NCBI RefSeq assembly: GCF_900099825.1
Contig: NZ_LT629693.1
Coordinates: 2,294,001-2,358,000 of the forward strand
From: Bradyrhizobium ottawaense
GTDB lineage: Bacteria > Pseudomonadota > Alphaproteobacteria > Rhizobiales > Xanthobacteraceae
Length of the DNA stretch: 64,000 nt
Reading direction: 5' to 3'
The notes under the pieces were generated by a model. The model had not been told where the DNA came from. It saw only the letters and a program-made list of their open reading frames with translations, and did not search any database. The translations under genes were made by a program, and so were the position numbers. Of the stretch, positions 5,902-16,754 are shown in pieces (the stretch's first letter is position 1; each line of letters starts with the position of its first letter).

Positions 5902-6453
5902 TTACTTCGAGCGTTGGCGACCAGCTTTCGCCGGCGCGGGCTTCCACAACCGGGTGAACTCACGCGTCGCTCGATCGTATGTCGCGAAGTCATTCACTGC
6001 ATTGGCCACCACCAATGCGCCCGTGATCGTTGCCAGCAATTGCGAGGCCTCATCCGACGAGAGGCCCTCCTCCACGAGCTTTTCGTGACACATCTTGAAG
6101 AACTTCTTTACTTCCGCTGATACTTCCGGCGGCAGATCCATGGATGATGCACCGAGGACGGCGCATGGACACATGCGATCCTCTGAGTGCAAGGTCCCTC
6201 GGAACGCTTTCACCCAAACCTTCACCGGGTTTGGCTCCTTCTGGAGCTCTCGTTCGATCAAATCCGCCGTCTGTGCGGTATAGCGCTGAATGACGGCTGC
6301 AGCGAGGTTCTCCTTCGTCGGAAAATGATAGTGGACGCTAGAACTCTTGACGCCCACGTCGACTGCAATCTCTCGAAAACTGAAACCGTTGAAGCCGGCC
6401 TTCCGCATTCGCCGCTCAGCGGCGTCCATGATGGCGGCGGCGACGTCACTCAT
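5902..6453 (-). CDS. TetR/AcrR family repressor (TetR1)
   Basis: A 183-residue TetR-type regulator. The N-terminal helix-turn-helix is clear (GFSFREIAVDVGVKSSSVHY followed by HFPTKENLAAAV), and an all-helical ligand-binding domain follows. The start at 6453 is preferred over the 19-codon longer frame because GGGAG precedes it and the HTH then begins about 12 residues in. It is a paralogue of the regulator at 13188 (GFSFRDLAAEIGIKSASVHH). Its own upstream region carries two CTATCGATAG-like palindromes, so autoregulation is likely. The position beside ene-reductase/SDR genes is reminiscent of NemR, the electrophile-sensing TetR that controls nemA, but no sensor Cys was established. Confidence 0.9.
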   Translation of the reverse strand: MSDVAAAIMDAAERRMRKAGFNGFSFREIAVDVGVKSSSVHYHFPTKENLAAAVIQRYTAQTADLIERELQKEPNPVKVWVKAFRGTLHSEDRMCPCAVLGASSMDLPPEVSAEVKKFFKMCHEKLVEEGLSSDEASQLLATITGALVVANAVNDFATYDRATREFTRLWKPAPAKAGRQRSK

Positions 6454-6470
6454 TGAGTCTGCTCCCGTGG

Positions 6471-6488
6471 CTACCTCTCGATAGGTAG
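6471..6488. promoter_or_regulatory. TetR operator-like palindrome, site A
   Basis: CTACCTCTCGATAGGTAG is an 18-mer, palindromic except for one base pair around the TCGA centre. It lies 17 bases upstream of the TetR1 start and 51 bp (centre to centre) from site B. It matches the pattern of the other palindromes in this window. Confidence 0.6.
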
Positions 6489-6521
6489 GGCTTACAGAGA
6501 TCAAAAACAATGCCTGTCAGT

Positions 6522-6539
6522 CTATCTATCGGTAGGGCA
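6522..6539. promoter_or_regulatory. TetR operator-like palindrome, site B
   Basis: CTATCTATCGGTAGGGCA has a good left half-site (CTATCTATCG) and a degenerate right half. On the minus strand a CTGACA hexamer lies about 10 bases downstream of its centre and may be the -35 box of TetR1. Confidence 0.5.
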
Positions 6540-6675
6540 TAATGCTAAGCAAGGCAGCGAACGTCTGTCGCAAGCCTGATCTTCGGGCCCTTGGCCGGGC
6601 TTCGGCCCGTCGATCGCGGCAGGAAGACATCACCCCTCCCTCGGGCACGAACCTCAAGCAAGCTGGGTGATCAAG

Positions 6676-7365
6676 ATGTTCTCGGTGATCTTCGAAGTCC
6701 ATCCCAAGAAAGAGCAATTCGACCTTTACCTCGCTCTTGCGAAAGACTTGAAGCCGATCCTGGAAGGCATCGACGGGTTCATCGACAACGAGCGCTTCGA
6801 AAGCGCGCGTCGGCCAGGGTGGATCCTGTCGCATTCCACATGGCGAGACGAAAAGTCCGTTGTGAGATGGCGCACCGTCGCCAAGCACCACGAGACTCAA
6901 CAGCGCGGTCGTGACGACGTCTTTCAAGATTATCATTTGCGGGTCGGCGAAGTCGTGTCGGATACGGCGCCTCCCAACGGCGTACCTCTGGTCGAACAGC
7001 GTTTGGACGAGACGGAAGTCGGCGCCGGGAAGTTTGCGACGCTTACCGAGGTTTTGCCATCGGCGACTGGAGCAGGATCACTGGCCCCGTCGGAGTTCGC
7101 TGACCGCTTGTCGCTCGATCGAACACACTCGGCCCCGATCGACTACGATGTTTTCTCAAGCATCTACAATGCGGGAAAACTTGCATTGTTGGCGAGTTGG
7201 CGCGACCGCAACTCCGCTGAGCAGTTTGAACCACAGCTCCCTACCGAGGCCGACGCTGTTCGTCATCGCGTCGTACGCATCGTGCGTGACTACGGCATGT
7301 TCGATCGACGTGAAAGCCCACAATATTATCCTGACATTCCACGTGGCCCGACGACGCGCAGATAG
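6676..7365 (+). CDS. Antibiotic-biosynthesis-monooxygenase (ABM) domain protein
   Basis: About 229 residues. The N-terminal part, MFSVIFEVHPKKEQFDLYLA followed by a WRDEKSVVRWR segment, is a typical dimeric alpha+beta-barrel ABM domain. The C-terminal half (SWRDRNSAEQFEP) looks like a second, more divergent copy, so the protein may be a fused pseudo-dimer. ABM proteins include cofactor-free monooxygenases and heme oxygenases, but no specific substrate is suggested. The frame can also start with GTG at 6667; the ribosome-binding site is weak for both. It is divergent from TetR1 and may belong to the same regulon. Confidence 0.75.
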   Translation: MFSVIFEVHPKKEQFDLYLALAKDLKPILEGIDGFIDNERFESARRPGWILSHSTWRDEKSVVRWRTVAKHHETQQRGRDDVFQDYHLRVGEVVSDTAPPNGVPLVEQRLDETEVGAGKFATLTEVLPSATGAGSLAPSEFADRLSLDRTHSAPIDYDVFSSIYNAGKLALLASWRDRNSAEQFEPQLPTEADAVRHRVVRIVRDYGMFDRRESPQYYPDIPRGPTTRR

Positions 7366-7544
7366 GACTCCGTCGTTCGCGAAAAACAAAGCCGGCCGCA
7401 AGTCCGAGGAACCCAGGCATTCGAGGGCCCGAGTCATGGATCGGCCGTTCCGCGCTCGCGGCTTGCATCCCTCTCTCTGCTCGGCGAAGCGACATCGAGG
7501 GAAGTCGTTCAGTAATTCTTCCGCCGCCCGTCACGACGTTGTTC

Positions 7545-7562
7545 CTCTCTATCGATAGATCA
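7545..7562. promoter_or_regulatory. TetR operator-like palindrome, site C
   Basis: CTCTCTATCGATAGATCA contains a perfect CTATCGATAG core (7549-7558). Its centre is 12.5 bases upstream of the first base of the TTGACG -35 box of the SDR promoter. Confidence 0.65.
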
Positions 7563-7565
7563 GAC

Positions 7566-7594
7566 TTGACGCATCCAGTTTCCAGAGTTAATTC
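7566..7594 (+). promoter_or_regulatory. Sigma70-type promoter of the SDR/ene-reductase genes
   Basis: TTGACG (7566-7571), a 17-base spacer and TAATTC (7589-7594). It lies between palindromes C and D, so a repressor bound at either site would block RNA polymerase. The predicted transcript starts near 7601, within the left flank of site D. Confidence 0.6.
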
Positions 7595-7606
7595 TCCGAA
7601 GCTCAT

Positions 7607-7624
7607 CAATCTATCGATAGGTAG
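7607..7624. promoter_or_regulatory. TetR operator-like palindrome, site D
   Basis: CAATCTATCGATAGGTAG has a perfect CTATCGATAG core and sits just downstream of the -10 box, 20 bases before the SDR start codon. Its centre is 62 bp from that of site C. Confidence 0.65.
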
Positions 7625-7644
7625 AATAACACAGGAGGGTTGCC

Positions 7645-8418
7645 ATGCGTTTTCAGGACAAGGTCGCGATCGTTACAGGAGGCAGTTCAGGCATCGGCAA
7701 GGAAGTGGCGACCCGATTTGTCGCTGAAGGTGGATCTGTCGTCATCATCGGACGCGATGCCGCCAAAGCTGAAGCCGCAGCCAAGCAAATCGACGCGACC
7801 GGAAAGCGTGCTATCGCCCATGTAGGCGACATTTCCCTGCCGGCGACCGGACAAGCAGCGGTGAAGGCAGCGCTAGATCGCTTTGGCCGTCTGGACGTCC
7901 TGTTCAACAACGCCGGCATCTTCGGGCCGAAGCCATTCCTCGACGTCACCGAGGATGAATACGATCGTTTCCTGAGCATCATCCTCAAGGGCAAGTTTTT
8001 CGTCGCACAAGCGGCCGCAAAAGCCATGAAGGCTGCCGGCCGCGGCGGCGCGATCGTGCAGACCGGCTCCATGTGGGGCCTGCAGGCGATCGGCGCCACG
8101 CCCTCGTCCGCTTATTCAGCGGCCAATGGTGGCGTCCATGCGCTGGTCAAGAACCTCGCGATCGAGCTCGCCCCAGACAAGATCCGCGTGAATGCGATCG
8201 CGCCCGGCGTGATCGAGACCCCGGTCTTCAGCACATTCCTGACGCCGGAACAGGTGAAGACCGTTCTGCCGACCTTTAATGCAATGCATCCTCTTGGCCG
8301 AAACGGTCAGCCCGCAGACGCGGCCGAGGCGCTTCTGTTCCTTGCCTCGGATCAGGCGAGTTTCATCACCGGTGTCATCCTTCCGGTCGACGGTGGCGTC
8401 ATGGCTGGCAGGCAGTGA
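7645..8418 (+). CDS. SDR-family oxidoreductase-like protein with YxxxN instead of YxxxK
   Basis: 257 residues with the classical SDR layout: VTGGSSGIGKE cofactor loop near residue 10, NNAG near residue 90, a Ser-containing strand (VQTGSMWG), and a C-terminal LPVDGGVMAG. The active-site segment reads SSAYSAANGGVHAL, so the catalytic Lys of the Tyr-x-x-x-Lys motif is Asn here (codon AAT). AGGAGG lies about 7 bases before the ATG. It is probably co-transcribed with the ene-reductase downstream (gap about 130 bases) from the operator-flanked promoter at 7566. The fold is certain. Whether it still reduces or oxidises a substrate is doubtful because of the Lys replacement. Confidence 0.88.
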   Translation: MRFQDKVAIVTGGSSGIGKEVATRFVAEGGSVVIIGRDAAKAEAAAKQIDATGKRAIAHVGDISLPATGQAAVKAALDRFGRLDVLFNNAGIFGPKPFLDVTEDEYDRFLSIILKGKFFVAQAAAKAMKAAGRGGAIVQTGSMWGLQAIGATPSSAYSAANGGVHALVKNLAIELAPDKIRVNAIAPGVIETPVFSTFLTPEQVKTVLPTFNAMHPLGRNGQPADAAEALLFLASDQASFITGVILPVDGGVMAGRQ

Positions 8419-8547
8419 TTGCTCGTGTGACCAGGTCGACGTCCGACATCGGTGATCCGTCCCGCGCCTGACCGCGCGGGGCCAACCTCCCCATCACGCC
8501 CCTCCCTTCCCTTTCCGGCGCAGGCCCGTCACGAACGGAGAATCCCA

Positions 8548-9693
8548 GTGGGTACAAACGTTCAAAAGAAACTCTTCACGCCCGTTCAAATCGGGCCCAT
8601 CACACTGAAACACCGTGTCGTCATGCCGCCGATGAGCCGGCTACGGGCGCAGCCAGGGACGGGCATTCCGAGCGACTTGCAGCTCGAATATTATACGCAG
8701 CGTGCGTCTGACGGCGGGCTGATCGTCACGGAAGCGACGGCGATCGCGGCATCCGCGCGAGGTTACTACCATGCGCCCGGTCTCCACGCGGACGACCATG
8801 TGGCGGCCTGGAAACGGATCACGGATGCGGTTCACGCCAAGGGCGCATACTTCTTCACGCAGCTTTGGCACGCCGGCCGCACGACACACGTCTCGATCAC
8901 GGGATCGCAGCCGGTTACGGCGTCTGTCGATCCGGCTTACTGGGCTGATCCGAGCATCGTCGTCGATACGCCTGATGGGTTTCGTCAGACATCGCCGCAT
9001 CGAGCGCTGGAGACCGCGGAAATCGCCGGTGTTCTCGAACAGTACCGCGCGGCCGCCCAGAACGCGAAGAAGGCGGGTTTCGATGGTGTCGAACTGATGG
9101 CGGCCAACGGCCACCTGATGGATCAGTTTCTGCAGGACAACACCAACAAGCGGACCGACCAATACGGCGGTACGGTCGAGAATCGAATGCGTCTTCTCGT
9201 CGAGGTCGTCCAGACGTTGGCCGAGGTCTGGGGTGCGGATCGGGTCGGGGTTCGACTCGCGCCAAGCGGGACGTTCAACGGCATGGGCGACAGCAACCCC
9301 CGTGCGCTGTTCCGCTCGGTGGCAGAGCGGCTTGACGGCTTCGGGCTCGCGTATCTTCACCTCATCGAACCGCGGGTGAAGGGCGGTGAGACCGTTGCCG
9401 AAGCGCAGGCGCCGGTCGCAGCCCAGGAATTGAGCAAGATCTTCAAGGGACCAGTCATCTCGGCCGGTGGATTCAATCCGGAGACGGCCGAGGCAAGCGT
9501 GGTCAATGGCGATGCGAGCCTAATCGCCTTCGGCCGTCACTTCATCGCGAATCCCGACCTGCCCAGGAGGATCGAACTCGGCTTGCCGCTGAACCCATAT
9601 GACCGCAGCACCTTCTATGGCTACACCGCGCGCGGCTACACCGACTATCCCGCCTACGAAGCGTCCTTACAGGCTCTGCTTCCCACTTCCTGA
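8548..9693 (+). CDS. Old-yellow-enzyme family ene-reductase (NemA-like)
   Basis: About 381 residues of FMN-dependent alkene reductase. Visible family features are LFTPVQIGPITLKHRVVMPP at the N-terminus, QLWHAGR, the AANGHLMDQFLQDNTNKRTD segment that places the flavin- and substrate-binding residues, YGGTVENRMRLL, and ISAGGF with a DASLIAFGRHFIANPDLP C-terminal phosphate-binding region. GTG at 8548 is preferred over the upstream GTG at 8452 because GGAG precedes it and the alignment starts there. These enzymes reduce activated double bonds, maleimides, quinones and nitro compounds with NAD(P)H. With the SDR and MFS exporter it suggests detoxification of an electrophile under TetR control. Confidence 0.93.
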   Translation: MGTNVQKKLFTPVQIGPITLKHRVVMPPMSRLRAQPGTGIPSDLQLEYYTQRASDGGLIVTEATAIAASARGYYHAPGLHADDHVAAWKRITDAVHAKGAYFFTQLWHAGRTTHVSITGSQPVTASVDPAYWADPSIVVDTPDGFRQTSPHRALETAEIAGVLEQYRAAAQNAKKAGFDGVELMAANGHLMDQFLQDNTNKRTDQYGGTVENRMRLLVEVVQTLAEVWGADRVGVRLAPSGTFNGMGDSNPRALFRSVAERLDGFGLAYLHLIEPRVKGGETVAEAQAPVAAQELSKIFKGPVISAGGFNPETAEASVVNGDASLIAFGRHFIANPDLPRRIELGLPLNPYDRSTFYGYTARGYTDYPAYEASLQALLPTS

Positions 9694-9866
9694 TTGAGAT
9701 TGCGAAAGTCCTGCCGATCGTCCGCGCGTCGGCAGGACCTCTTGTCGTTGATCTGCATAGCCGAGCTCATCGCGCGGGGTCGCGGAATAGCGGAATGGGT
9801 GGTTTCGTGCTCAGAAATGGCGAAAATAGTTTCGGTGAGGCAGCGGGACAGCCGCAGGCTGACGCC

Positions 9867-11402
9867 ATGTCGCCGTCTTCGAGGGCTCGGTTCTCTGGCC
9901 GGAAGCTGCGCACGTTGCTTTGTTGTGCAGGCGCGCCCTTCCTCATCATGCTCGACACTAACATTGTCGCCGTCTCGCTGCCGTCCATTGCGCGCGACTT
10001 GCGCGGCGGATTTGCTGATGTCGAATGGGTCGTCAGCGCGTATATCCTTCCGTTCGCGGCTCTGCTGATGCCTGCAGGCGCCTTGGCCGACCGTCTTGGA
10101 CGGCGGCGCATGCTGCTTATCGGGCTGTCGATCTTCACATTCGCCTCCTTTCTCTGCGGTGCGGCACCCAACCTCGCTACACTGAACGGGGCGCGCGCAT
10201 TACAGGCGGTCGGCGCGGCGCTCCAACTGACGTCGTCGCTGGCCGTCGTCGCACACGGATTCGAACCTCACGAACGAGACCGCGTCTACGCGATCTGGGG
10301 CACCGTAATGGGCATGGCACCGCCTCTCGGTCCGATCCTCGGCGGCCTCGTTACGTCCTATCTGGGATGGCGATGGGCGTTTTACATCAATTTGCCGTTG
10401 GGCGCCGGATTGATCGTCCTCGCCCTGACGTCGGTCGCGGAATCTCGCGACCCGAAAGCGTCAGGCTTGGACTATCGGGGAATCCTCCTCTTTGGCGCCG
10501 GTCTTTTCGGCGTTGTGTGGGCTCTGATCGATGCAAATAGCATCGGCTGGGAAAGTGCGCCGACAATCATCAGACTCGCCGCAGGCGCGGTCCTGCTTGT
10601 GGCGTTCGTTTTTGCCGAACGCAAACACCCACGCCCGATGATCGACCTGTCGATATTCCGCGATCCGACCGTCACCGGAGCAGCCGTTGCTATGTTGGGT
10701 TACGCGGCCGCAGCACAAGTCATGATGACGATCCTTCCGCTCTATCTCCAGGATGCGTTTGTGCTTTCTCCGGCGATCACAGGTCTCGCAATGATACCTT
10801 TCGCATTGCCGCTGCTGATCGGTCCCAGCGTGGGCGGCAGGCTCGCGACGCGCATGTCCAGCCGTGCGATCCTGAGCTTCGGTCTCGGATTGGTCGCGCT
10901 TGGCAATGCGATCGCGGCAGCAGCCGTGCTGGCGGACCTATATTGGACGGCTGCGATCGGCATGTTCATCACTGGATCAGGCGCGGGCCTGCTAAACAGC
11001 GAGACGGCGAAAGCTCAAGTCAGCTCCGTTCCGCCAGAGCGCGCCGGGATGGCCTCCGGATTGGCAAGTACGACGCGGTTCATTGGCATCATCGCCGGTG
11101 TCGCGGGGCTGGGCGCAGTGCTCGCAGCCGTGGCCGAGGCCAGCCTTCGAAGGCTTGGAGCGCCACTCGTGCTCGATCAGAGGGTCGATTGGCACGACCT
11201 GAGCCTTCGGATCGTAGGTGGCGACGCGAGCGGTGCTTTGTCTGCTTTATCAGATCCGATTCGAATCGCCCTCCAAGGCACGGTGCACGCCAGCGTAGCA
11301 GCCGGCTTCGGTGCTGCACTCTCCGTTGCCGCGGTCGTCGCAGTTTTTGCAAGCCTGGCGAGTTGGCGGCTCATCCGGGCGGCTGGAACGCGCTCATCCT
11401 AA
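9867..11402 (+). CDS. MFS drug exporter, DHA2 (14-TM, EmrB/QacA-like)
   Basis: About 511 residues with 14 predicted membrane helices. Motif A is visible as GALADRLGRRRMLLIG. Motif C is the segment containing MAPPLGPILGG. The opening helix FLIMLDTNIVAVSLPSIARD is typical of DHA2 proton antiporters. ATG at 9867 is preferred; the frame stays open to ATG at 9795, but that would add an atypical soluble leader. It follows the ene-reductase by about 170 bases in the same direction, so probably serves the same detoxification unit. Its last bases overlap the end of the convergent flavoprotein fragment, which marks a rearrangement point. Confidence 0.88.
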   Translation: MSPSSRARFSGRKLRTLLCCAGAPFLIMLDTNIVAVSLPSIARDLRGGFADVEWVVSAYILPFAALLMPAGALADRLGRRRMLLIGLSIFTFASFLCGAAPNLATLNGARALQAVGAALQLTSSLAVVAHGFEPHERDRVYAIWGTVMGMAPPLGPILGGLVTSYLGWRWAFYINLPLGAGLIVLALTSVAESRDPKASGLDYRGILLFGAGLFGVVWALIDANSIGWESAPTIIRLAAGAVLLVAFVFAERKHPRPMIDLSIFRDPTVTGAAVAMLGYAAAAQVMMTILPLYLQDAFVLSPAITGLAMIPFALPLLIGPSVGGRLATRMSSRAILSFGLGLVALGNAIAAAAVLADLYWTAAIGMFITGSGAGLLNSETAKAQVSSVPPERAGMASGLASTTRFIGIIAGVAGLGAVLAAVAEASLRRLGAPLVLDQRVDWHDLSLRIVGGDASGALSALSDPIRIALQGTVHASVAAGFGAALSVAAVVAVFASLASWRLIRAAGTRSS

Positions 11403-12238
11403 AGCGGGAGCCCCTCCGACGCCGCATACACGGCAACAGCGAGACCTGCCGGGCCCGCGCCGACGACGATCACGTCGTACGTCGTTCCAGGTTTGATATC
11501 GGGGACGATTCCCAGGCCAACTCCCGCCTCGGCATCGCTCGGCCGGCGGAGCACCGTCCCGTTTGGACAGATCAGGATCGGCAAATCGGCTGCCTGCACG
11601 CCGAGGCGCTCGACAAGGGCTTTGCCTTCAGTACCACCTGCATCGATCAGCGAGTACGGGTAGCTGTTCCGGGTAAGCAGGCCCCGAAGGCCAACCGTCG
11701 CCGGCGATCCCGCTTCTCCAAGGATGACCGAGCCAACGCTGTCCCCCTCCAACAGCGCGGCGCGCCGCAGGATGAAGGCCCGCATCATCAGTTCGCCGAT
11801 GTCCGCGCTGCTGATGAGCAGAGCTCGAAGATGAGGGAGATCGAACGGATAGGCCGTGTACCCGTTCGGTCCCGCGCAGACCATGGCCAAGGAGGCATGC
11901 CCGGCAAGGTCACTTACTTCTCCGCTGAACTGACCCGGTCCGCCGGTGGCAAATATCCCCTCCCGGCCCAGACCATCCCGTCGGCTCGCAACGATGCCCC
12001 CCTCGACGACCAGCCACACGGCCATGTCCCGATCGCCGACATCGAGAAGCTTTTCGTCCGGTGCAAAACGCCGCTCAGGACCGCTCGCGAAACGAAGAGC
12101 GAACTGTATTTGAGCCGGAGTCAGCGTCGGAACGATTTGGGCCAGTCGGTCGTCCAGCAGCATACCAAGTGCCTCGCTGATGGGGATTCGGCTCGTGCGA
12201 CGCCGAATCGTACGGGTCGGATTGGTCAGCCGGCCCAA
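11399..12238 (-). pseudogene. Truncated CRP-domain/thioredoxin-reductase-like flavoprotein
   Basis: 279 residues remain. They comprise a cyclic-nucleotide-binding-like domain (about residues 30-150), a thioredoxin/glutaredoxin-like linker domain (about 155-235), and only the first beta-alpha of the FAD domain (VIVVGAGPAGLAVAVYAASE). The frame stops immediately after. Intact homologues of this fusion continue for roughly 270 more residues, with the NADPH domain and the redox CxxC. The stop overlaps the MFS stop on the other strand. The start overlaps the upstream hydrolase by 13 bases, so it is still translationally coupled. It cannot work as a reductase. Confidence 0.82.
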
Positions 12239-13086
12239 TGGCCGCGCAGCAGCCGATTGAATGCGTCCGCCCGCTCCTCAGGAAAGAAAAGCCGCGCTCC
12301 TGACAGCTCAACCGGCGGTCTCGCTCCTGGGATCGCCTCGGCCAGCCAGTGCGCCCATTTCACCGGAAAGTAGACATCGTCCGTGGCCCAGACGATCAGT
12401 GTCGGCGCCTTGAGCTGACGCAATTGGGGCTCGATGGCCAAAGTGTGTTTGTTGTCGAATGCGCCGACGAAGCGCTCCAGATCATGGATACGTTGCTCGT
12501 TGCGCAGGTGTGGCCGCAGGTAGATTTCGATATCTTCGTCCCTGACGGCTTCGGAGTGCTCGTAGGCTGGGCCAAGTGCACCTGGCGAGCGATAAATCGA
12601 TTTGTCGCCGAGCATTGCGTTGAGGGTTTTGCTCAGCCCGCCGGCAGCAACCATTTCCACGAACGGTTTGAACGCTTTGGGCGGCCAGTTGTCCTGGGTA
12701 TCACAGTTCGTGAGCGTCAGCGTCCGCACCCGATCCGGATTGAGCGCGGCGAAGATCTGGCAAATCCCTCCGCCGCTGTCGTTTCCGACCAGATCGACCT
12801 GATCTATATGCAGCGCGTCGAGCACTTCCTTCAGCATCTTCGCATTGGCGGTCACAGACACGTCCTGAGCGGCTGCGATTTCCGTGTCGCCGTGCGCAAG
12901 CAGGTCGACCGCGATGCAGCGCCGAAAATCTGAAAGCGCGCCGAGCTGGTAGCGCCACATGTGCTTGTTCAGCAGCACGCCGTGCACGAAGAGAGCGACC
13001 GGTCCCGATCCCACTTCCACGTAACCGATTCGGCCTGACGGCGTGTCGACGTGGCGAACGGCCGGCGTATCCTGTTCGTTGCTCAT
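12226..13086 (-). CDS. Alpha/beta hydrolase with Asp nucleophile (haloalkane dehalogenase-like)
   Basis: 286 residues. The fold markers are HGVLLNKHMW (oxyanion loop), VGNDSGGGICQ (nucleophile elbow with Asp at the nucleophile position, as in dehalogenases and epoxide hydrolases) and WATDDVYFPV (acid loop). The usual C-terminal catalytic His is not obvious: the expected region reads LSGARLFFPEERADAFN, with no His between the acid loop and the final HW. I recall this variation in part of the family, so catalysis is uncertain. It is transcribed from a promoter at 13128-13156 that is bracketed by palindromes E and F, divergent from TetR2, which makes it a likely TetR target. Confidence 0.85.
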   Translation of the reverse strand: MSNEQDTPAVRHVDTPSGRIGYVEVGSGPVALFVHGVLLNKHMWRYQLGALSDFRRCIAVDLLAHGDTEIAAAQDVSVTANAKMLKEVLDALHIDQVDLVGNDSGGGICQIFAALNPDRVRTLTLTNCDTQDNWPPKAFKPFVEMVAAGGLSKTLNAMLGDKSIYRSPGALGPAYEHSEAVRDEDIEIYLRPHLRNEQRIHDLERFVGAFDNKHTLAIEPQLRQLKAPTLIVWATDDVYFPVKWAHWLAEAIPGARPPVELSGARLFFPEERADAFNRLLRGHWAG

Positions 13087-13104
13087 GAGGTCCTACTCCT
13101 ACTC

Positions 13105-13122
13105 CGCTCTATCGATAGGTAG
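13105..13122. promoter_or_regulatory. TetR operator-like palindrome, site E
   Basis: CGCTCTATCGATAGGTAG has a perfect CTATCGATAG core. It lies downstream of the -10 box of the minus-strand hydrolase promoter, 19 bases before the hydrolase start. Confidence 0.65.
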
Positions 13123-13127
13123 ACCAT

Positions 13128-13156
13128 GGGATAACTCTGGAAATCTCTGCCGTCAA
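13128..13156 (-). promoter_or_regulatory. Sigma70-type promoter of the alpha/beta hydrolase
   Basis: Read on the minus strand: TTGACG (13156-13151), 17-base spacer, TATCCC (13133-13128). It sits between palindromes E and F. The centre of F is 12.5 bases from the first -35 base, the same offset as in the SDR promoter. Confidence 0.55.
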
Positions 13157-13159
13157 CGT

Positions 13160-13177
13160 CTATCTATCAGTAGAGAT
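13160..13177. promoter_or_regulatory. TetR operator-like palindrome, site F
   Basis: CTATCTATCAGTAGAGAT has an intact left half-site and a weaker right half. It lies between the hydrolase -35 box and the TetR2 start (13188), so it can control both divergent genes. Confidence 0.5.
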
Positions 13178-13187
13178 AGGAAATGCG

Positions 13188-13724
13188 ATGAACGAGACGG
13201 CAGAGCGCCTGTTGGACCTGGCCGAGGCTCGCATCTGCGAGGCGGGCTACCGTGGCTTCAGCTTCCGCGATCTTGCAGCCGAGATCGGCATCAAGAGCGC
13301 CAGTGTCCACCACCATTTCCCGACGAAGGCGGGAATGGCCGCTGCGGTCGCGCGCCGATACGGGGATCGCTTCTTCGAACTGGTCGCGCGGCGGGGTGAT
13401 GAGAGCGGCGACGAGGTGATTGCGATCTATCGATCCGCGTTTCGCAGCCCGATCGAACGGGATGGCCGGATGTGTCTAGGCGGCATGCTTGGCGCTCAAG
13501 CGGGCGGTCTACCGCCCGAGATCGTGCAGGAAATCGAGATGTTCTTTCGACGCTGCATCGACGACCTTTCGAGCAGAATTGGCGGAGCGGATGCTATGGC
13601 TCGGGCGTTCCATGTGATGGCGGCCTTGGAAGGAGGCTTGATTCTTGCGCGTGCCTATGGCGACATCTCCGCGTTCGATCAGGCGACTGCGGGGCTTACC
13701 GGGCCCACATTCGCAGTCGCCTGA
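13188..13724 (+). CDS. TetR/AcrR family repressor (TetR2)
   Basis: 178 residues. The N-terminal HTH is GFSFRDLAAEIGIKSASVHH with HFPTKAGMAAAV, very close to TetR1 at 5902-6453. The C-terminal domain is helical and contains CLGGMLGAQAGGLPPEI, equivalent to CAVLGASSMDLPPEV in TetR1. The ATG at 13188 directly follows palindrome F. Two closely related repressors next to one family of operators suggest that they share or partition the same sites. The stop overlaps the start of a 43-codon ORF. Confidence 0.9.
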   Translation: MNETAERLLDLAEARICEAGYRGFSFRDLAAEIGIKSASVHHHFPTKAGMAAAVARRYGDRFFELVARRGDESGDEVIAIYRSAFRSPIERDGRMCLGGMLGAQAGGLPPEIVQEIEMFFRRCIDDLSSRIGGADAMARAFHVMAALEGGLILARAYGDISAFDQATAGLTGPTFAVA

Positions 13725-13855
13725 TGATCGCGCGAAAGCGCGCTGTCATGATCCCGGCTTCGGGCCGAAGCGACCTCACCATCGACGCGGACGTTTTGTC
13801 TGATCACTTCGCCCATCTATTCGCCGATCTGACAACAGCAATGGCGGAACGCTAA
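13724..13855 (+). CDS. Small unknown ORF overlapping the TetR2 stop
   Basis: 43 codons starting with ATG inside TGATG at the TetR2 stop, ending four bases into the stop codon region of the convergent AlkB-like gene. The product contains DADVLSDHFAHLFADLTTAM and no motif I know. The start/stop overlap favours translation by coupling, but there is no other support. Confidence 0.3.
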   Translation: MIARKRAVMIPASGRSDLTIDADVLSDHFAHLFADLTTAMAER

Positions 13856-14484
13856 TCGCTCGAGGAGCTTCGGCGAGAGCGAAACGTACGCAAGGTCACG
13901 GAGTAGCGCAGAACGTCCATCGGTGCGATGCTGTGCTGCCAGCTGTTCCGCACCGGGCCATGGAGCAAATACACCGATCGTGGTTCGACATGCGCGGACC
14001 GGCGCTCCCAGCCCTCCCCCACCCTCCGACGCAGCCGCAATGTGCAAGGTGCGAGAAACGACACTGCGACGATATCTTCATACGACGGCCGGTCGCGGTG
14101 CCAGCCGATTCCAGCGCCCGGCCCATACTCCGTCACCATGAGCTGCTCAAACGCCTCGGCCGGTACGCCACTGATCTGGCTTGCAACGTCGGTGAGCGGC
14201 AGAAGGTAATCGGGAATGCCCGCATCGGCGCGTGGCTCTTGGCCTGCGAAGACATACCTGTGCCCAAAGCTGTATATGCGGCGATTGCCCTGATGGCCGT
14301 GAAATTCGAAGGGCTTCAGGGGCAGCTTTTCAAATCGCTGAACGAGGCTCTTTTCGTCGGCGGTCGATATTACATCCGGGATATAGCGGAAACCGGCAGG
14401 CAGCTCAGGCTCCCCGAACAGGTCGTCCATGCTGCTGATGGGACTGCTGGTGTATTTCTTCGCTGAAGCGCGTTTCACGGGCAT
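13852..14484 (-). CDS. AlkB-like 2-oxoglutarate/Fe(II) dioxygenase
   Basis: About 210 residues. The double-stranded beta-helix Fe(II) site is visible as WHRDRP (His and Asp) and SWQHSIAP (second His). RYSVTLRTFRSR carries the Arg that binds 2-oxoglutarate. YGPGAGIGWHRD is characteristic of the AlkB family, which repairs alkylated bases or modifies RNA or protein. The frame could start upstream (TTG at 14616), overlapping the DUF1993 stop, but the extra residues are low-complexity and ATG at 14484 fits the family length. It follows the DUF1993 gene on the same strand. Confidence 0.85.
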   Translation of the reverse strand: MPVKRASAKKYTSSPISSMDDLFGEPELPAGFRYIPDVISTADEKSLVQRFEKLPLKPFEFHGHQGNRRIYSFGHRYVFAGQEPRADAGIPDYLLPLTDVASQISGVPAEAFEQLMVTEYGPGAGIGWHRDRPSYEDIVAVSFLAPCTLRLRRRVGEGWERRSAHVEPRSVYLLHGPVRNSWQHSIAPMDVLRYSVTLRTFRSRRSSSSD

Positions 14485-14602
14485 CGAATCTGGAGATTCT
14501 TCTTGGGGGCTCGACTTGTGGTGAGCGGACGGCTTGCCGCAGGGCGACCGCGCTCCCGATCGGCGCCGAGAGGGTCCGGGCAAGAAAGGAGAGCCTGTCT
14601 CG

Positions 14603-15109
14603 TCAAGCTTGGACAAAATTCATTGGCCCAAGGAAGTCCATTTTGCCGACGTCGACGCCGCCGTTGCGGAGGACCGCGTACGTCATCGCAATATGGAAGT
14701 AGACGTTCGGAATCGTTATCTGAAGCAGATAATCCTCGCCGCCGATGACCTTCCCGGGAACCCACGAAAGGCTGACTTTGCGGCCTTCTGCGCCTTCATA
14801 TTGTGCTTCGTGTACGCTTTCGGCGAAATCGACAGTTTTCCGAACGCGAGCGCGCAGCTCTTCGAGGGTTTGCTCATTGTCTTCGTGTTTTGGCGGCGTC
14901 TGCCCGGAAAGCCAGGCAGCGGCTGCTTTGACATAATCGCAAGCGCTCTGCACCTGGTAGATCAAGGGCTTCATGTCGGGCGCGAGACGACCGTTCAACA
15001 GCTCACGGACGTCAAACTGCTTGGCAGATGCAAATTGGTCGGCCTTGTCGAGCAAGACCTCCACAGTCTTCAAGGACTGGACGCACTGCGAAACGACTTG
15101 ATAATACAT
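14603..15109 (-). CDS. DUF1993 family protein
   Basis: 168 residues matching the DUF1993 family: an all-helical protein related in fold to DinB/YfiT. The C-terminal conserved region reads PNVYFHIAMTYAVLRNGGVD followed by VGKMDFLG. Function is unknown. ATG at 15109 is preceded by GAAGGA about 6 bases upstream. It lies upstream of the AlkB-like gene on the same strand, and both could respond to alkylating or electrophilic stress, which is inference from context only. Confidence 0.85.
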   Translation of the reverse strand: MYYQVVSQCVQSLKTVEVLLDKADQFASAKQFDVRELLNGRLAPDMKPLIYQVQSACDYVKAAAAWLSGQTPPKHEDNEQTLEELRARVRKTVDFAESVHEAQYEGAEGRKVSLSWVPGKVIGGEDYLLQITIPNVYFHIAMTYAVLRNGGVDVGKMDFLGPMNFVQA

Positions 15110-15170
15110 GGGATCTTCCTTCGCTGGATTTTGCGCTAGTGACGTGCTGATGTCGTCATAAGGCGGATGC

Positions 15171-15524
15171 TCATTCGTTGAGGTGATTCTCCCAATCCGC
15201 TGGGACGCGCCCCTTTGGTCCAGGCGAAGGCTGGTCAAGTGGCCGAGATCGCGGCAACGCCAGCCTGGGGCCGTAGAACGGCTTTTCGGTTCCATAGTTC
15301 CAGAACCAATCCTCACCAGGCTCGAAGCTTGTTACGATAAAGTGGCCAGTCTCGCGAAAATGCGCTGTAGCGTGCTGGTTTGGCGACGTATCGCAACAGC
15401 CGATGTGGCCGCATTTGGCGCAGCGCCGCAGATGGAACCACCATTGGCCAGCAGCAAGACACTCGACACATCCCGTTCCACTTGGAATGGCGTGAGGGTC
15501 AATGCCTTCTGATACGTCGCTCAC
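15171..15524 (-). CDS. UBP-type zinc-finger protein
   Basis: 117 residues. Cys and His residues are arranged as in the UBP/BUZ zinc finger: GCVEC, then RRCAKCGHIGCCD, then NQHATAHFRETGHF. The aromatic end segment DWFWNYG is also typical. Stand-alone bacterial UBP zinc fingers are common in actinobacteria and rhizobia and have no settled role; in eukaryotes the domain binds the C-terminus of ubiquitin. GTG at 15524 is chosen because GGAG lies 5 bases before it. Confidence 0.85.
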   Translation of the reverse strand: MSDVSEGIDPHAIPSGTGCVECLAAGQWWFHLRRCAKCGHIGCCDTSPNQHATAHFRETGHFIVTSFEPGEDWFWNYGTEKPFYGPRLALPRSRPLDQPSPGPKGRVPADWENHLNE

Positions 15525-15688
15525 TGCTGCTCCGCGTCCGCTCGATCCAGCGGGCGAATGCCCACCGTGTTGGGCTACCGGCGGCTTGTAATGCCGTCGT
15601 AAAGGGGGGCCGTTGCGCATTCAAACGGCCCTATAGAAAGGTCTTGGTCCACGTCCACGAGACGAAGATGAGGATATCTGGGCAAACG

Positions 15689-15719
15689 GCGCCGCGGAAG
15701 TTGGCTATCTTCGCGGCGC
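15689..15719 (-). terminator. Possible terminator hairpin after the ICL/PEPM gene
   Basis: GCGCCGCG (15689-15696) pairs perfectly with CGCGGCGC (15712-15719), extended by AAG/CTT after a one-base bulge. It lies about 65 bases past the stop of the minus-strand gene ending at 15785. Only a short T run follows on the minus strand, so termination strength is uncertain. Confidence 0.4.
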
Positions 15720-15784
15720 AAATCTTCTCACAATCCTTGCGAGGGCGTCGCGGGTTTGGCCGTCCTCCAGAGGTCGCAGGCAGA

Positions 15785-16531
15785 TTACGAAAAGAGCTTT
15801 CTCGCCTTCTTCTGGAGAGCCTCCATCGCCTCGATGTACGGAATCGGCCCGTAGCTCACGCGGGCAACACCCAATTTCGCGAGCTTGTCATTCGATGGGA
15901 CGCCTTCCATGACCATAACGTTGACCGGCAGCGTCGCTTCCTCAGCAATCCGACGGATATGGTCGGCCTCGATCAGCCCGGGAATGAAGAAGCCGGACGC
16001 GCCGGCCGACGCGTATGCCTTCGCTCTGTCCAGGGCTTCGTCGACATCGCCGCTGTTACCTAAGAACACATCGGTCCGTGCATTGATAAAGAGAGGAACG
16101 CCCTTGTGTTCGGCAGCATGTCGGATCGCCGCAATTCGCTTCGCCTGCCGATCAACGTCGTAGAGCCCTTTCCCCTTGACCACGCGGTCCTCGAAATTGA
16201 TCCCGATGATTCCCAGATCAAGCAGCTTGGAGATGTTCGAGGCTAGTTTGCGATCATCGTCGCTGTAGCCGCCTTCGAAGTCGACGGTCACAGGCACGTC
16301 AACTGCCGCCACGATCCGCTCGACGATCTGCTCGGCAAGAGGAAGCGGAAGGTCCTCGCCGTCCTCATACCCCTGCGCAGTGGCGACAGACCAACTGCTC
16401 GTCGCGATCGCCTCCGCACCGGCCTCGACGATCGTTTTCGCACTGCCTGCATCCCACGCGTTGTAAAGTATCACTGGCGTTCCTTTGACATGAAGGGCGG
16501 CAAATTGTTTGGCTTTCTTGGTCTGGCTCAC
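15785..16531 (-). CDS. Isocitrate lyase/PEP mutase superfamily enzyme
   Basis: About 248 residues of the ICL/PEPM superfamily (TIM barrel, Mg2+-dependent C-C or C-P bond chemistry). Markers are LYNAWDAGSAKTIVEAGAEA, the metal-site segment VTVDFEGGYSDD, GINFEDR, and INARTDVFLG. The catalytic-loop KxxxC of isocitrate lyase proper is absent, so it belongs to the uncharacterised mutase/lyase-like branch. GGGAGG is six bases before GTG 16531. ATG at 16537 directly abuts that ribosome-binding site and is less likely. The gene is driven by a promoter flanked by palindromes G and H, linking it to the TetR regulon. Confidence 0.85.
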   Translation of the reverse strand: MSQTKKAKQFAALHVKGTPVILYNAWDAGSAKTIVEAGAEAIATSSWSVATAQGYEDGEDLPLPLAEQIVERIVAAVDVPVTVDFEGGYSDDDRKLASNISKLLDLGIIGINFEDRVVKGKGLYDVDRQAKRIAAIRHAAEHKGVPLFINARTDVFLGNSGDVDEALDRAKAYASAGASGFFIPGLIEADHIRRIAEEATLPVNVMVMEGVPSNDKLAKLGVARVSYGPIPYIEAMEALQKKARKLFS

Positions 16532-16681
16532 TGTCATCCTCCCGTTCATAGATTGCACGATGGTGAAATCGCAGACGGACTTGGAGTCGAAGCCGCGCTT
16601 GCGCACGCCACCAGCGTGACCCGCCGCGCAGCACTGAGCGGCGGGCTACGATCAAATGCCACGCGCCGTTGCGCAGCCTGA

Positions 16682-16699
16682 CTATCTATCGATAGATCG
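16682..16699. promoter_or_regulatory. TetR operator-like palindrome, site G
   Basis: CTATCTATCGATAGATCG contains a perfect CTATCGATAG core (16686-16695). It lies downstream of the minus-strand -10 box of the ICL/PEPM gene. Confidence 0.65.
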
Positions 16700-16704
16700 C
16701 TGGT

Positions 16705-16733
16705 TTGATACGACTCCTGTTCAGCTCTGTCAA
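16705..16733 (-). promoter_or_regulatory. Sigma70-type promoter of the ICL/PEPM gene
   Basis: Minus strand: TTGACA (16733-16728), 17-base spacer, TATCAA (16710-16705). It is bracketed by palindromes G and H. The centre of H is 12.5 bases upstream of the -35 box, as at the other two promoters. Confidence 0.6.
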
Positions 16734-16736
16734 CAT

Positions 16737-16754
16737 CTATCTATCGATAGAACA
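16737..16754. promoter_or_regulatory. TetR operator-like palindrome, site H
   Basis: CTATCTATCGATAGAACA contains a perfect CTATCGATAG core (16741-16750). Centre-to-centre distance to G is 55 bp, identical to E-F. Confidence 0.65.

Follow-up and report, generated by a model that had tools for sequence, protein, structure and literature searches.

Paired palindromes in Bradyrhizobium ottawaense as probable operators of a NemR-like TetR clade

A stretch of 64,000 nucleotides from Bradyrhizobium ottawaense (contig NZ_LT629693.1, positions 2,294,001 to 2,358,000; hereafter the window) carries a gene cluster whose promoter regions contain pairs of 18-bp palindromes. These palindromes are best explained as the operators of one clade of TetR proteins, two to each promoter, which would control an autoregulated detoxification regulon. 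The regulators are postulated to be electrophile-responsive repressors of the kind of Escherichia coli NemR, with a different operator. Judged from sequence, this reading was given a probability of roughly 0.8. The identity of the operator, its pairing, its geometry and the gene content were obtained by comparison. The clade is widespread but apparently unstudied.

Eight sites with the consensus CTAYCTATCGATAGRTAG were found in the window, arranged in four pairs with spacings of 51, 62, 55 and 55 bp, and a perfect CTATCGATAG core was present in five of the eight. The first-pass annotation had listed these sites, their pairing at 51–62 bp and the five perfect cores, and all were recovered at the same positions. 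With one mismatch allowed, CTATCGATAG matched eight times in the 64 kb, at seven of the eight sites and at a stray position (34437), compared to 0.87 ± 0.93 matches (maximum 4) in 100 shuffled windows. When three mismatches were tolerated, the 18-mer gave six matches, every one among the eight sites, and 0.00 in the shuffles. The two sites missing the three-mismatch cut, 6522 and 13160, ranked seventh and eighth (22.9 and 22.2 bits) by a position weight matrix (PWM) trained on the same eight sites; the next-best match in the window was 12.9 bits, in an overlapping register. At three promoters, driving genes for a short-chain dehydrogenase/reductase (SDR), a hydrolase and a phosphoenolpyruvate (PEP) mutase-like enzyme (PEPM), the spacer was exactly 17 bases and the operator was centred 12.5 bp from the first base of the −35 box, as had been claimed. 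For the SDR promoter, the promoter listing also held an alternative 16-base spacing. The first region, that of TetR1, had only a weak promoter candidate, with an operator offset of 10.5. The sites and promoters were:

6471..6488: operator proximal to TetR1, CTACCTCTCGATAGGTAG, 17 bp from the TetR1 ATG at 6453
6491..6520, minus strand: candidate TetR1 promoter, weak and putative; CTGACA 6515-6520, TGTAAG 6491-6496, spacer 18
6522..6539: partner operator of the TetR1 pair, CTATCTATCGGTAGGGCA, 51 bp from the 6471 site
7545..7562: operator 1 of the SDR promoter, abutting the −35 box
7566..7594, plus strand: SDR promoter; TTGACG 7566-7571, TAATTC 7589-7594, spacer 17
7607..7624: operator 2 of the SDR promoter, covering the predicted start region
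13105..13122: operator 2 of the hydrolase promoter
13128..13156, minus strand: hydrolase promoter; TTGACG 13151-13156, TATCCC 13128-13133, spacer 17
13160..13177: operator 1 of the hydrolase promoter, at the same time 10 bp before the TetR2 start codon
16682..16699: operator 2 of the PEPM promoter
16705..16733, minus strand: PEPM promoter; TTGACA 16728-16733, TATCAA 16705-16710, spacer 17
16737..16754: operator 1 of the PEPM promoter, abutting the −35 box

The palindrome had been put forward as the mark of the regulon, and a scan of the host genome (8,339,115 bases, one contig) bore this out for the 18-mer but not for the bare 10-mer. With up to three mismatches, the 18-mer matched nine times (two of the matches overlapping) against three for the reversed control; six of these matches lay in the window cluster and three at one second locus. 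Exact CTATCGATAG occurred six times, five of them inside the cluster, and its reversed-pattern control five times. The bare 10-mer is clustered without genome-wide enrichment, and the signal lies in the clustering and in the longer palindrome. At the second locus, a fifth pair (5,420,734/5,420,790, 56 bp apart) was situated between a third tetR paralogue and a glutathione S-transferase (GST) gene. The product of this paralogue, TetR3 (C1:5420154-5420807; L037:8149-9507), was 40% identical to TetR1, its gene was divergent from that of the GST, and the same TetR-GST layout was found again in several congeners. The clade in the host would consist of TetR1 and TetR2 in the window and TetR3 elsewhere.

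For comparison between genomes, a second PWM was derived from 76 training sites, located in the window and at 31 loci of the genus; a profile, A1, was built from 15 aligned TetRs. Across 265 genomes of the genus, the 18-mer with at most one mismatch was present in 25 (reversed control, 0/265) and a TetR of at least 230 bits to A1 in 24. By hand tally, 23 genomes had both, two had the site only, one had the TetR only and 239 had neither (Fisher p = 9e-30, uncorrected for relatedness). The TetR-only genome, G067, has a variant pair, CTACCTGTCGACAGGTAG / CTACCTGTTAACAGGTAG.

The upstream regions of relatives in public records gave a test that is less circular than the 265-genome table. The 80 loci used were the best of at least 559 confirmed relatives, mainly from alpha- and gammaproteobacteria, plus Herbaspirillum, one Mycobacterium and a Verrucomicrobiota metagenome-assembled genome. 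Within about 300 bp upstream of tetR, a site of at least 9 bits was found for 76 of these 80 best relatives and a pair for 55, compared to 0.85 with a site and 0.0 with a pair per set of mononucleotide-shuffled upstreams. Other open reading frames (ORFs) of the same loci had an upstream site in 29/949 cases, of which several belonged to additional operator pairs within these clusters. At a threshold of 14 bits, 186 sites were present in the 947 kb of the 80 loci and one in a single Markov control, and 141 of the sites preceded the start of a clade gene by no more than 320 bp. From all fetched loci, 214 TetR-like ORFs were reduced to 163 by dropping duplicates and ORFs with less than 200 bp upstream; 162 of these homologues reached 150 bits, and an upstream site of at least 9 bits preceded 156 of them. 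The proposal of a TetR regulon with a shared operator is supported by the coincidence of site and clade in the 265 genomes and by the sites upstream of the best relatives. Beyond the window cluster it extends to the fifth pair at TetR3/GST and to a layout found mainly in alpha- and gammaproteobacteria.

The position of the promoter relative to the operators was then compared among pairs. The 156 close pairs were reduced to 127 by deduplication at 80%, and 111 of these were 40–75 bp and 106 were 45–70 bp apart. In 67 of the 106, a TTGACA-like hexamer (at least 5/6) lay exactly 3 bp inside one operator. Such a hexamer was seen on both sides in none of the 106, at the outer flanks in one, and at any other inner offset in at most nine. 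After clustering of the spacers at 62% similarity, the +3 offset was retained in 48/77 clusters (next-best offset, 5). The promoter was directed away from the flanking tetR in 36/36 cases, and in 7/7 with a 4-of-6 match to the −35 box. In the 48 clusters, the centre of the second operator was −0.5 to +16.5 from the predicted start.

These positions suggest how repression might work. At most such promoters, operator 1 is centred 12.5 bp upstream of the −35 box and ends 3 bp before it, and operator 2 lies over the transcription start, with a predicted centre at about 0 to +17. A dimer on each operator would then exclude RNA polymerase from the promoter between them. In divergent tetR/effector regions, the layout is such that one pair could also provide autoregulation of tetR, since the operator abutting the effector −35 box is usually 4–30 bp upstream of the called tetR start (28/36). 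The regulon itself would form a detoxification module of SDR, ene-reductase, MFS efflux transporter, hydrolase, PEP mutase-like enzyme and antibiotic biosynthesis monooxygenase-like (ABM) protein, with the GST at TetR3. Occlusion, autoregulation and the inducer are inferred.

A candidate sensor residue was found in Cys95, which is invariant in 15/15 of the TetRs aligned in A1 and aligns with Cys106 of E. coli NemR. By a looser test, some cysteine within that 20-residue stretch was present in 162/162 homologues. The structure of NemR (4yze) matched the clade profile over positions 3–172 of 179 with E = 2.4e-11, as the seventh best PDB match. NemR is described as responding to electrophiles and HOCl (PMC12274486). 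By analogy, a response to electrophiles is plausible for the clade, on the basis of the gene content, the invariance of Cys95 and the distant homology to NemR. Release of the repressor would probably follow modification of Cys95 by electrophiles or oxidants, or the binding of a ligand.

Several observations count against the reading of the palindromes as operators of a NemR-like clade. The co-occurrence table is partly circular, since the second PWM was trained on sites of the window and the genus and A1 was built from site-adjacent TetRs, and the 230-bit line was set after a gap in the scores (234.5 to 223.0) had been seen. The 80 public loci were picked through a helix pattern, [VI]H[YH][HY]FPTK, and two of them (L105, L166) are on contigs that also gave training sites. 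Six of the 162 homologues of at least 150 bits were without an upstream site of at least 9 bits, and 30 of the 106 pairs, including that of TetR1, had no −35 match of at least 4/6 at the fixed offset on either side. Two genomes carried sites and no TetR of at least 230 bits, G251 with a good pair (L099, 7993/8042) and G156 with a lone site (L094, 8134); possibly these sites are orphans or the targets of a more distant relative. The cysteine is also present in homologues with an RKAS-type recognition helix that are without the operator, and is not specific to the operator clade. The identity to NemR is 19%, and NemR has another operator; on these two grounds, the clade proteins were rejected as NemR orthologues.

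The exactness of the −35 offset goes beyond the need of simple occlusion and leaves room for a contact with polymerase. A dual regulator, in which TetR on the −35-abutting operator contacts the sigma or alpha subunit across a constant distance and so activates or holds polymerase, could account for it. The distance from operator to −35 box is fixed (48/77 clusters) and the position of the second operator varies. The geometry is retained at promoters without a divergent tetR, such as those at 7545 and 16682 in the window. Among 39 strong lone sites, none had a −35 match of at least 5/6 at +3, so that the operator at the start can occur without a partner, but no clear case of a solitary −35-abutting operator was seen. 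However, a 3-bp gap permits few insertions or deletions, and descent may account for part of the constancy; among the 39 lone sites, five do match the −35 box in 4 of 6 bases at +3, and most TetR proteins are pure repressors. On balance, a dual regulator was judged rather unlikely. The same low weight was placed on its most developed form, a composite element operator-N3-TTGACA kept across proteobacteria as a dual-mode switch, with the upstream dimer touching polymerase and the second operator occluding the start.

Cooperative or looped repression, with contact between the dimers bound at each operator of a pair and looping dependent on both sites, had been suggested by the first-pass annotation and found little support. 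Sites were paired at all four window regions and the 40–75 bp range held 111 of the 127 deduplicated pairs. The spacings showed a mild helical preference (R 0.18–0.20, with 0.194 at 10.5 bp; p = 0.081, 0.054 and 0.045 against jitter at 10, 10.5 and 11 bp). However, in the 45–70 bp set every value from 47 to 67 bp except 48 and 60 was occupied, the 39 strong lone sites exist, and DNA loops of about 47–67 bp are stiff. This explanation is improbable.

A third possibility assigns the sites to another regulator, with the TetR genes no more than targets among others, as TetR genes sometimes are. The two genomes with sites and no TetR of at least 230 bits (G156, G251) would fit. In opposition to this, the operator occurs along with the TetR clade in different genera and classes, and the inner six operator bases change with the recognition helix, which is typically G[IV]KSASVHYHFPTK. 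For helices of the KS type (n=128), the commonest inner bases were ATCGAT (50), and for the KA type (n=23), GTCACT (6) and CTTGGT (5). In a phylum sample, 8/9 RKAS-type homologues below 140 bits had no site of at least 9 bits, and the ninth had a weak variant. Another regulator is very unlikely. A chance or repeat-derived origin has next to no weight: the bare 10-mer is unenriched genome-wide (6 versus 5 reversed), but the 18-mer and the pairing are far above shuffles and controls, and the shuffles, reversed patterns, Markov control and unrelated-ORF control ruled such an origin out.

To classify the genes of the window cluster, ten proteins of the window were scanned against Pfam and NCBIfam. 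The predicted members that adjoin sites (SDR, ene-reductase and MFS transporter, hydrolase, PEP mutase-like enzyme, TetR1 and TetR2) were confirmed in their families. The genes were:

5902..6453, minus strand: TetR1, 183 aa; TetR_N PF00440, E = 7.2e-11, above cut-off; conserved Cys95
6667..7365, plus strand: ABM-domain protein; PF03992, 2.7e-11; faces the TetR1 operator pair
7645..8418, plus strand: SDR, 257 aa, by Pfam/NCBIfam
8548..9693, plus strand: Old Yellow Enzyme (OYE)/NemA-like ene-reductase; PF00724, 8.9e-89; putative GTG start
9795..11402, plus strand: DHA2-type MFS efflux transporter; TIGR00711, 243.5 bits, cut-off 230.2
11399..12238, minus strand: shortened gene, 279 aa, for a cyclic nucleotide monophosphate (cNMP)-binding and thioredoxin-reductase-like flavoprotein
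12226..13086, minus strand: alpha/beta hydrolase; PF00561, 5.2e-21
13188..13724, plus strand: TetR2, 178 aa; TetR_N PF00440, E = 5.7e-10, above cut-off
13852-14616: 2-oxoglutarate (2OG)-Fe(II) oxygenase, beside TetR2, without a site of its own
15785..16606, minus strand: PEP mutase/isocitrate lyase superfamily enzyme (PEPM); PF13714, 7.9e-81

TetR2 shared 38% identity with TetR1 by the genome search and 36% by alignment A1. For the OYE, the best NCBIfam model was PRK10605, N-ethylmaleimide reductase (1e-106; 357 bits, under the cut-off of 403). Its gene is likely in the same operon as that of the SDR, and the MFS transporter is the probable last gene of this operon. The cNMP-binding/thioredoxin-reductase-like protein is 609 aa long in the relative L043, compared to 279 aa in the window. 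Between its gene and the MFS gene, about 1.05 kb was absent relative to L042, L043 and L044, and the sequences overlap by about 5 bp at the junction.

Across the pairs, 76 non-tetR genes flanked a pair within 130 bp, and the 48 with a −35 match of at least 4/6, some of them near-duplicates, were taken as driven. Their Pfam tally was 19 SDR, 10 GST, four PEP mutase, four MFS, four HlyD adaptor and two alpha/beta hydrolase, with single cases of LysR, DJ-1/PfpI, DUF3551, ABM and carboxymuconolactone decarboxylase. The driven genes would represent, for the most part, a detoxification repertoire. In G125, a gene for a resistance-nodulation-division (RND) permease adjoins a pair that lacks the −35 feature. 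A lone site of G161 stands directly before a 2OG oxygenase gene (L087:8248-9105; PF09859, a family described as acting on damaged DNA). Large regulators of 916–953 aa were present within several homologous clusters (L039:12498-15248, L041:2703-5453, L087:4464-7325); the one scanned, from L039, gave winged-helix output and weak ATPase matches. Their presence suggests a second layer of control.

A fourth relative in the host, TetR4 (C1:4592361-4592903; L038:6350-6913), has a helix of the KA type, and its pair is a variant one, CTACCAAGTGACAGATAG at 6960 and CTACCAAGTGGCAGGTAG at 7014 of L038, 54 bp apart and scoring 14.3 and 8.4 bits. It probably constitutes a separate regulon. At 24/265 genomes (at least 230 bits), the clade is accessory in the genus. 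The matches listed for TetR1 include relatives 82–84% identical in Rhizobium sophorae and a Mesorhizobium. Together with the accessory status, these relatives hint at horizontal spread of the cluster.

If the reading as clade operators is correct, many proteins named 'TetR/AcrR family' or 'repressor of nem operon' would gain a predicted operator, predicted targets and a promoter rule. Defence against xenobiotics and electrophiles would become traceable by sequence in gammaproteobacteria and in the alphaproteobacteria of soil. Sensor design would gain a natural operator, and the question of why a repressor binds at an exact distance from the −35 box would have a clear-cut case.

Among the open-access papers listed, no description of the operator was found, and the earlier statement that no described regulon has such an operator holds within that scope. 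Six 14-mer operator strings matched no open-access paper, and the 10-mer matches listed included no title on a bacterial regulator; of the papers listed, the nearest were those on NemR and DitR. Among solved structures, the sequences closest to the clade profile were 3on4 (E = 2.5e-40) and 2g7s (E = 5.8e-33), presumably from Legionella and Agrobacterium respectively, both listed just as TetR-family regulators. The helix of 2g7s is of the R-N-A-S-I-H-H-H-F type, and homologues of the related RKAS type are mostly without the operator. In the same genus, Bradyrhizobium FrrA and the genistein-induced BjG30 locus likewise represent TetR genes beside efflux genes, but with an RND pump and PHB genes (PMC4070704).

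The E. coli nemRA-gloA system has in common with the clade the TetR fold, a cysteine in the same place and an Old Yellow Enzyme in the regulon, and many of the at least 120 relatives that JGI lists for a TetR3 query are named 'repressor of nem operon' or 'repressor for nem operon'. The NemR operator is TAGACC-N4-GGTCTA. Upstream of E. coli nemR is tagaccgactggtcta, which we take to be the NemR box, in contrast to the consensus in the window. The clade PWM found nothing above 5.9 bits upstream of E. coli nemR, and one match of 12.6 bits inside the nemR coding region. The arrangement also differs, with tandem nemR-nemA-gloA in E. coli and divergent or scattered targets in the clade. No glyoxalase I was found among the ten window proteins scanned; DJ-1/PfpI occurs near operators in some relatives.

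The DitR/mfsBC system of Stenotrophomonas maltophilia is a close functional parallel to the clade. The two have in common a divergent tetR and MFS efflux gene and several operators, and in DitR the protection extends between −57 and +21 and two conserved cysteines are needed for the response to diamide (PMC9342713). The DitR operator is, however, CATACnnnnnGTATG, with three sites, one of them between −35 and −10, and its paper names TtgW as the nearest relative (PMC9342713).

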